From NCBI GenBank assembly GCA_017511865.1, contig JAFWIQ010000007.1:1-43622 (forward strand): DNA of 43,622 bases, given 5' to 3'. This DNA is from Candidatus Saccharimonadota bacterium. Its GTDB lineage: Bacteria; Patescibacteriota; Saccharimonadia; Saccharimonadales; Saccharimonadaceae. The position numbers and the translations under genes are program-made. Shown here one piece after another: positions 41,895-43,622 of this stretch; position 1 is the stretch's first letter, and each line of letters opens with the position of its first letter. Below the pieces are notes generated by a model. The model was not told the DNA's origin. It made no database searches and worked only from the letters and a program-made list of their open reading frames with translations.

Positions 41895-42206
41895 ATGAAT
41901 AATCCCCTTTTGAAATATGTCATGAAGACGAAAAAGACGGATGTTTTTCATTCGTCAGTATTTGGGAGGGCTCAGAATGGAAGTGGGGTTGGCGTGGTTT
42001 CTTCGGGGAGTTTTTCGGAGAGGCGTTCTTTGAATAGCAATCGCGGGATACTTGGTGGTTATGGTAAATCTAGAATAGTGGGTGAAGCAAGAGGCGCTGT
42101 TCCCAGGGCAAAGCAATACGAAAAGCCTCAAGTGGCTAAGCCACAACTAGATAATGGACCCAAGGTGGCATCTCCAGTCAGAGGAAATCCTGGCATTTCG
42201 AGATAG
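41895..42206 (+). CDS. Small basic protein, probably disordered
   Basis: The protein has 103 residues: MNNPLLKYVMKTKKTDVFHS, then a Ser/Gly/Arg-rich region (VVSSGSFSERRSLNSNRGIL) and KPQVAKPQLDNGPKV near the end. No family, membrane segment or fold is evident. AAAGGAG stands 4 nt before the start, and it follows the tail-anchored protein gene by 8 bp. The frame is in a leading-strand operon without overlap with other frames, which supports it being real. Confidence 0.55.
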   Translation: MNNPLLKYVMKTKKTDVFHSSVFGRAQNGSGVGVVSSGSFSERRSLNSNRGILGGYGKSRIVGEARGAVPRAKQYEKPQVAKPQLDNGPKVASPVRGNPGISR

Positions 42207-42208
42207 AT

Positions 42209-42403
42209 ATGAAACGATTTTTGCTGTATTTATGTAGGTGGCAGTTGTCTAGCCCTATATTGGCATTGTGTTTGTCTTGGCTAGAGCCAGTGGGCACGGC
42301 ATTGGCTACCGTGATAGCAAATTTAATTGGTGGGGCAATTTTCTATTGGGTGGATTTGAAAATTTTTAGAAAAGATGACAAGAAAGATGAGGATGAAGAA
42401 TAG
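42209..42403 (+). CDS. Small membrane protein of 64 residues
   Basis: The product has one or two hydrophobic helices (SSPILALCLSWLEPVG; ALATVIANLIGGAIFYWVDL) after a basic N-terminus MKRFLLYLCRW, and a charged tail KDDKKDEDEE. It begins 2 nt after the preceding stop with no clear ribosome site, so it depends on translational coupling. No family is recognised. It is the last gene of the tpiA operon as far as can be seen. Confidence 0.6.
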   Translation: MKRFLLYLCRWQLSSPILALCLSWLEPVGTALATVIANLIGGAIFYWVDLKIFRKDDKKDEDEE

Positions 42404-42438: not shown

Positions 42439-42455
42439 TATAATGAATTTAGGAG
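42439..42455 (+). promoter_or_regulatory. Promoter and ribosome site of the nuclease-repeat gene
   Basis: TATAAT at 42439-42444, then AGGAG at 42451-42455 and ATG at 42461. The leader would be about 10 nt. Confidence 0.55.
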
Positions 42456-42460
42456 AAACT

Positions 42461-43622
42461 ATGAATTTAATAGAAACGACACATTTGTCTGGAGAATCAA
42501 ATGAAGTCGAGCAAAGAGCTAATTATATAAAAATCAGTAAAGGAGTTTTAGGGGTTTATGATCAAGCTCCAGAAGGCAATTTGGTCGGTAAAATTGATAT
42601 TAATGCGCAAAATGCGGACGAGGTTTTGAGGAGTGAACTTGGAGAAAATGAAGATATTTACTCACCAGAAGAAAAAGATATAATTGTAGAAACAACAAAA
42701 CGTGTTTCTTTTGGCACAAGTTTTCCGGAAAACGCAATAGCTTTTTATTTAGCAAAAACTAATAGTGCTATTACACAGAGGTCAAGGCCGGATTGGCTTA
42801 AGAATCCAGACACCGAGCGTAATTTAGAAGTGGATATATTTGTTGATCCGCCTGGAGTTGGAATCGAATACGATGGCTGGCGGTATCATCAAGATTCGGA
42901 ACGCGACGTAAAAAAGGATCAGATAGCAAGAGAGCATGGTTATCGTATTATTCATATCCGTGAAAAAGGTTGCCCAGATCTTTCAGAAGATTCAGTCTGT
43001 ATTGAACGTGATAATAATGGAAAAAACAGTGATTTGAGTGAGTGTATTAGGAAGTGTTGTCGATTGTTGGGTGCTCCCGAATTGGATATCGACGTTGCTC
43101 GCGACAAGAAGGAAATCATGGCCTTTATGCAAAAAACAATACTTGATAAACTTAAGTCCATCGATGCTTTAATTAAACTCGGTTACGAAGAAGATGATGC
43201 AAAGGATATTACTAGTAATATTACACTTTCGGACCTTAATTTGTCTGGTAAGATTTACAGAAATTTTGTTTTTTTGCAAGAACTTGGTTACTCACGAGAT
43301 GAGGTAATTAAGATGACTAAATCATTGCCAACTATTTATAGTCTTTCAATTGACAATATGAAACAGAAGATTTCAGATATGCAAGGACTTGGTTACTCAC
43401 GAGATGAGGTAATTAAGATGACTAAATCATTGCCAGCAATCTATAGCTATTCAATTGACAATATGAAACAGAAAATCTTAGATTTACAAGAACTGGGTTA
43501 TTCACGAGACGATGTGATTAAGATGACTAAATCATTGCCAACTATTTATAGTCTTTCAATTGACAATATGAAACAGAAGATTTCAGATATGCAAGAGCTG
43601 GGTTATTCACAAGACGATGTGA
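42461..43622 (+). CDS. DUF559/Vsr-like nuclease domain fused to mTERF-like repeats (3' end outside window)
   Basis: The frame is open to the window edge, giving 387 residues. Residues ~85-172 read like a PD-(D/E)XK endonuclease of the DUF559/very-short-patch-repair type: SFPENAIAFYLAK, then RNLEVDIFVDPPGVGIEYDG (Asp, Glu and YDG core), VKKDQIAREHGYRIIHIRE. After a helical linker and one divergent repeat (~235-272), 35-residue units begin at residue 273: LQELGYSRDEVIKMTKSL, PTIYSLSIDNMKQKISDM. Three full copies and part of a fourth are seen. Leu-x-x-Leu-Gly, Pro after the helix and Leu/Tyr spacing match mTERF motifs of mitochondrial and plastid nucleic-acid-binding proteins. It presumably binds nucleic acid with the repeats and cuts with the nuclease; the target is unknown. 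Confidence 0.8.
   Translation, partial: MNLIETTHLSGESNEVEQRANYIKISKGVLGVYDQAPEGNLVGKIDINAQNADEVLRSELGENEDIYSPEEKDIIVETTKRVSFGTSFPENAIAFYLAKTNSAITQRSRPDWLKNPDTERNLEVDIFVDPPGVGIEYDGWRYHQDSERDVKKDQIAREHGYRIIHIREKGCPDLSEDSVCIERDNNGKNSDLSECIRKCCRLLGAPELDIDVARDKKEIMAFMQKTILDKLKSIDALIKLGYEEDDAKDITSNITLSDLNLSGKIYRNFVFLQELGYSRDEVIKMTKSLPTIYSLSIDNMKQKISDMQGLGYSRDEVIKMTKSLPAIYSYSIDNMKQKILDLQELGYSRDDVIKMTKSLPTIYSLSIDNMKQKISDMQELGYSQDDV
43277..43622 (+). repeat. Near-identical 105-bp tandem coding repeats
   Basis: Units at 43277-43381, 43382-43486, 43487-43591 and the start of a fourth at 43592. They keep frame and differ by few bases, many silent. The high DNA identity implies recent expansion by slippage or recombination; copy number could vary between strains. 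Confidence 0.95.

Follow-up and report, generated by a model that had tools for sequence, protein, structure and literature searches.

Gene Structure and Genomic Context

The window, i.e., the complete stretch of DNA analyzed, represents the entire contig C17 (43,622 nucleotides) of a 600-kb draft genome of a Candidatus Saccharimonadota bacterium comprising 18 contigs. At its right end, an open reading frame (ORF) encoding a nuclease domain followed by mTERF-like repeats was observed (42461–43622, plus strand). It starts with an ATG codon at position 42461, is preceded by a Shine-Dalgarno-like AGGAGA motif (42451–42456, plus strand) and runs without a stop codon up to the contig end at position 43622. 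Extension beyond the window, as proposed in the initial annotation, recovered the 3′ end of the gene at the end of contig C9 (L004:7469–7999, minus strand), but an unassembled gap between C17 and C9 persists. The C9 end opens inside the same repeat and in frame with the C17 part, encodes approximately three further units, leaves the array via a segment beginning with DFYDSVSMHDL and then reaches a stop codon; this part matches the mTERF family (PF02536) at 67.1 bits. The stop codon is followed by a gene encoding a 100-aa mTERF-like partner protein (L004:7166–7468). Since no exact overlap between the C17 and C9 ends was found, the number of repeats (at least six units seen) represents a lower bound.

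In genome G003 of the same genus, the gene order is TIM, 216-aa gene, 103-aa gene, tRNA-His, tRNA-Gly, 597-aa gene, 427-aa gene and 350-aa gene. The first three of these constitute the end of C17 and the remaining ones the end of C9. Since the G003 order is contiguous across both contigs, the two ends are most likely neighbors in the genome, and the assembly most likely broke the fusion gene within its own repeats.

An erroneous join of nuclease and array by the assembler is very unlikely, even though the fusion was found in one genome, its contig stops 1.2 kb into the gene, and the draft is fragmented (86% complete, 4.9% contamination). The two parts are fused in frame without a stop codon, the array starts with its native N-terminal cap, and both flanks are syntenic with genus relatives. 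Furthermore, the array (G523) and the nuclease (G462, G518) each occur in this genus, and contigs of G523 and G1050 also end within arrays, which points to repeats, rather than the junction, as the source of the assembly trouble.

In G003 and G018, the tRNA-His gene lies approximately 27 bp behind the stop of the 103-aa gene, with a TATAAT-like box in this interval. The window’s genome has more than 2.6 kb at this site, occupied by the fusion gene together with a 64-aa ORF ahead of it and the 100-aa partner gene behind it. Because the site is empty in G003 and G018, the fusion cassette is interpreted as an insertion, with the 103-aa gene (41895–42206, plus strand), which is conserved beside tRNA-His in both genomes, as its left border. 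The G+C content is 0.36 in the in-window part of the gene and 0.33–0.34 in the array and the partner gene, compared with approximately 0.41–0.42 in the surroundings; since some further 1-kb segments of the window come close to the G+C content of the gene, this lends weak support to an insertion. An integrase island was considered, and no integrase was seen in the readable parts of the inserted segment. The 64-aa hydrophobic ORF (42209–42403, plus strand) has no family match and no homologue in the compared neighborhoods, and probably encodes a membrane protein.

The tRNA-His gene at the insertion (L004:6887–6963, minus strand) is approximately 78–81% identical to those of most genus members and 85–89% identical to those of some other members of the genus and order. 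Its divergence was considered as a mark of an altered target; this idea was rejected, since comparable tRNA-His variants were found elsewhere in the order.

The Nuclease Domain

Residues 85–205 (42713–43075, plus strand) were assigned to a Vsr-like PD-(D/E)XK nuclease domain based on alignments, an AlphaFold model and a structural match to Vsr, in agreement with the core proposed in the initial annotation. The putative catalytic residues E90, D125, E136, D138, H143 and D149 (with E136 and D138 in an E-Y-D-G motif) occupy alignment positions that are invariant or almost so among homologues of approximately 30–65% identity over the domain. Among these residues, E90, D125, H143 and D149 represent the E, D, H, D pattern of EDxHD/Vsr enzymes, and E136-x-D138 is additional to this pattern, as in DUF559-like relatives. 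A Pfam search returned REase_MTES_1575 (PF18741) with an E value of 2e-4 and 21.8 bits, which is below the curated cut-off of 38.2; the nuclease was therefore counted to the PF18741/DUF559 fold class without family membership.

The AlphaFold model of the ORF has a mean pLDDT of 77, with values of 83–93 across most of residues 91–240. In the VIA comparison, it matched Escherichia coli Vsr (1cw0, Z 8.5, rmsd 3.2 Å over 103 residues; 1vsr, Z 8.1) with scores in a range that common folds also reach, the Vsr fold being backed by the catalytic motif. NGO0050 (3hrl) was matched as well (Z 8.8). When the nuclease was used as query in a sequence-profile search of the PDB, no real match was obtained; the likeness to Vsr emerged from the structural comparison. 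The homing endonuclease I-Bth0305I was absent from the Foldseek and VIA lists, which is no argument against kinship.

Two PHROG families were matched weakly, namely phrog_3339 (‘homing endonuclease’, E 9e-5) and phrog_559 (E 1e-6). The wider nuclease family is represented by at least 600 matches in viral contigs. When the whole ORF was used as query against viral contigs, phages and plasmids, no pTERF array was found, and the phage and plasmid matches covered the nuclease half only.

The pTERF Repeat Array

The presence of 35-residue mTERF-like repeats downstream of the nuclease, also predicted in the initial annotation, was substantiated by a match to mTERF (PF02536) over residues 227–375 (E 5.8e-20, 71.9 bits vs. 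a cut-off of 23.1), whereas 14 control genomes gave zero matches, and by Tandem Repeats Finder, which reported a 105-bp unit with 3.2 copies and 87% matches. The array starts with an N-terminal cap (residues 231–274; 43151–43282, plus strand) common to nuclease-free pTERF proteins. Units 1 (43283–43387), 2 (43388–43492) and 3 (43493–43597) follow on the plus strand with T S L, A S Y and T S L, respectively, at the variable residues 17/20/21, and the contig ends within the first part of unit 4 (43598–43622, plus strand). Three helices per 35-residue unit were predicted by AlphaFold with good confidence, and the array matched human MTERF1 (3mvb, Z 9.4, rmsd 2.9 Å over 159 residues; VIA). Both folds expected from the initial annotation were thus predicted.

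The closest array relatives are those of G523 (70% identity) and of two clostridial metagenome-assembled genomes (MAGs; L015 and L016, 55–71% by segment). As judged by the repeat type and the clostridial hosts of its relatives, the array was classified as pTERF. According to Hu et al. 2024 (PMC11417379), pTERFs are arrays of 3–11 units in bacterial MAGs, mostly of Bacillota; pTERF1 and pTERF2 are sequence-specific dsDNA binders, pTERF1 binding ACTNNNAGTC with a Kd of 1.87 nM and pTERF2 preferring a different motif. Bacterial mTERF repeats have thus been on record since 2024, whereas the initial annotation regarded mTERF proteins as known mainly from mitochondria and plastids.

Comparison of 27 clostridial units revealed positions 14, 15, 17, 20 and 21, which flank the invariant proline 16, as the most variable ones; positions 26 and 33 vary too, showing I/M/Y exchanges. 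Among six units of the window’s group, 45 nonsynonymous vs. 12 synonymous differences were counted at the five variable positions, compared with 16 nonsynonymous vs. 102 synonymous differences at the other positions within 1–30, the five positions having been picked from the same data in which variability was measured. For this reason, a resampling figure (1 in 200,000) was dropped as a test.

In order to relate these positions to DNA contacts, unit positions were aligned to MTERF1, whose residue numbers were taken from chain 5crj (mutant F322A) and verified by R162A and F243A in 3mvb. R162 falls on position 14, R202, R350 and F243 on position 17, F322 on position 20 and R251 on position 25. 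Direct base contacts of MTERF1 are made by R162, R202, R251, R350 and R387 (PMC4705650). Repeat variation is thus located largely at DNA-touching positions of MTERF1 (R162 at 14; R202, R350 and F243 at 17; F322 at 20), and this placement suggests a modular DNA-reading code. Since the pTERFs described in PMC11417379 bind dsDNA specifically and the units vary at MTERF1 contacts, a dsDNA target addressed by the array is proposed.

An RNA-directed protein built on the plan of FASTK proteins would likewise combine helical repeats with a Vsr-like domain in a single chain; for FASTKD4, a Vsr-like character and RNA binding have been described (PMC11879112). FASTK proteins differ in being mitochondrial and RNA-binding, and the likeness drawn here is one of plan. 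Given dsDNA binding by published pTERFs (PMC11417379) and DNA homing endonucleases as relatives of the nuclease, this explanation is considered the least likely one.

Array Exchange and Distribution among Relatives

Residues 57–236 (42629–43168, plus strand), comprising the linker behind the last helix-turn-helix (HTH) unit, the nuclease and its C-terminal helices, form a module that recurs in HTH-array nucleases from the same bacterial family, with identities of 60, 56 and 61% to L021, L022 and L195 from genomes G462, G518 and G1050, respectively. In G462 and G518, six 67-residue HTH units are located ahead of the nuclease, and at least two are present in the truncated G1050 gene. In these three proteins, the HTH units resemble each other, most differences falling in the region of the recognition helix. 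In G462 and G518, the gene for the HTH-array nuclease is immediately preceded by a gene encoding 117–123 aa (L188:5569–5922 and L189:6354–6725; 66% identity to each other), which has no Pfam match and was not found in the window’s cassette.

The window protein retains the post-HTH linker (approximately residues 57–85), followed by the nuclease and, from approximately residue 231, the pTERF cap. In the simplest history compatible with this arrangement, a pTERF array would have been added at the C-terminus of an HTH-array nuclease whose N-terminal array was lost. A further nuclease relative in G502 (45% identity) carries a different HTH-like repeat, and in distant nuclease relatives from the same genus, the array consists of DUF4379 treble clefs. 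Their arrangement comes close to an architecture reported in PMC12350094 as a large unrecognized outgroup of EDxHD/Vsr homing endonucleases. One nuclease type thus occurs in combination with at least three different arrays predicted to bind DNA, namely treble-clef, HTH and pTERF.

The distribution of both parts is sporadic. Among 174 genomes of the genus, the nuclease module was found in 17, the pTERF array in two and both in one gene in a single genome. No second fusion was detected among the matches in overlapping samples of 394 family, 393 order and 380 phylum genomes (the latter searched with PF02536), the stronger matches having been inspected and the weak ones only in part, nor at the pTERF loci retrieved from 292 clostridial genomes. 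Likewise, no nuclease domain was present at approximately 30 fetched clostridial pTERF loci. The second pTERF gene of the genus, in G523, encodes no nuclease in its assembled N-terminal part, is accompanied by the same partner gene (85% identity) and appears to be located between the RNase HII and YchF genes, with a local inversion. In the rabbit-gut clostridial MAGs (L015, L016), the cassette consists of an array gene, a gene for a 132-aa mTERF-like partner and another array gene; this partner gene is also the one found behind the window’s gene (L004:7166–7468) and in G523. Moreover, pTERF-like arrays with 33–34-residue units and no recognized nuclease were observed within the same phylum in G238 (L008) and G868 (L199 and L200), the latter holding two paralogues.

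The occurrence of pTERF genes elsewhere without a nuclease and in multi-gene cassettes would fit a DNA-binding regulator or roadblock in which the array does the work and the nuclease is idle or rarely nicks. Conservation of the catalytic residues throughout the family, and retention of all of them here, argue against this option, which is regarded as improbable. Furthermore, no finding pointed to the roles in competition or genome regulation raised in the initial annotation.

Proposed Function

Based on these results, the fusion protein is probably a site-specific dsDNA endonuclease that uses its array as an address, a statement covering both homing and defense. A homing-type DNA endonuclease, probably free-standing and selfish, is the favored reading, with a probability of roughly 0.5. 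It is proposed because the catalytic residues and the Vsr fold are retained, PHROG homing families are matched, DUF4379-array relatives exist, the empty site is clean, the distribution is sporadic and the insert is low in G+C. rRNA-insertion homing endonucleases are already known in this bacterial radiation (PMC11270868). Counting against homing, the fusion was seen in a single genome with the gene split over two contigs, and the co-inserted partner gene, which also accompanies nuclease-free pTERFs, is atypical of a lone homing endonuclease gene.

According to the proposed mechanism, a pTERF array probably took the place of the HTH array in a related nuclease, and the gene would have arrived by horizontal transfer and inserted beside tRNA-His. 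The C-terminal pTERF superhelix of at least six units would wrap dsDNA and set the address, with variable side chains near the conserved proline of each unit reading bases like the aligned residues of human MTERF1, and the Vsr/EDxHD-like PD-(D/E)XK domain would cut. Cleavage of alleles lacking the insert would then enable selfish spread. If the protein homes, its target should lie at the insertion site or close to it.

Alternatively, the host may keep the protein as a site-specific cutter directed against phage or plasmid DNA, with an address evolving by unit exchange. Fast retargeting would fit the array exchange and the near-identical units, and sporadic presence is also compatible. However, the nuclease part had no PADLOC match up to an E value of 0.1, no known defense gene was recognized alongside, and the relatives match homing endonuclease models. 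The defense role put forward in the initial annotation accordingly ranks second behind homing and is rather unlikely. The programmable cutter envisaged there fared better: a site-specific enzyme is plausible, and programmability would agree with the variability largely at MTERF1-contact positions and with the two pTERFs that bind different motifs (PMC11417379), the code itself being putative here.

A more far-reaching suggestion, advanced tentatively, is a plug-in system in which a Vsr-like module repeatedly swaps arrays and a TALE-like pTERF code resides at positions 14, 17, 20 and 21. It is equally tentative that ultrasmall bacteria would, in that case, possess natural re-addressable nucleases. 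We know of no established base code for the mTERF-repeat scaffold. A pTERF code would be directly testable, since nature already supplies units whose differences are mostly concentrated at the putative reading positions.

Comparison with Known Systems

Neither component is new: pTERF arrays were described in 2024, and homing nucleases of the Vsr-like type are established as well. Their combination was not found in a literature search, with most subscription journals outside its coverage. Tandem three-helix mTERF-like units and close array relatives in Clostridia are shared with the pTERF family, for which the accessible parts of Hu et al. 2024 (PMC11417379) report no nuclease fusion. Human mitochondrial MTERF1–4 share the fold and repeat pattern, but have diverged repeats, no nuclease and roles in transcription or at the ribosome.

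CapR/DUF4379-array EDxHD/Vsr homing endonucleases (PMC12350094) and I-Bth0305I (PMC3943268) likewise combine a Vsr-like core with modular DNA-binding repeats and have a phage or mobile-element setting in common with the fusion. In contrast to zinc or NUMOD modules, a C-terminal pTERF array is present here, and no intron was seen. The HTH-array nucleases of G462, G518 and G1050 share the nuclease module (56–61% identity) and the linker, but their HTH address precedes the nuclease.

If the proposed function is correct, mTERF repeats have been turned by nature into a TALEN-like enzyme, site-specific nucleases would be seen to change their target via whole-array exchange, and a new programmable binder and cutter of DNA could come within reach. 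No TALE model was among the Pfam matches listed for the ORF, and the nuclease is unrelated to the FokI domain used in TALENs. With regard to its mode of operation, however, the fusion protein looks like a natural counterpart of the engineered TALEN, in which near-identical helical units of 33–35 residues with few variable positions are likewise joined to a nuclease.
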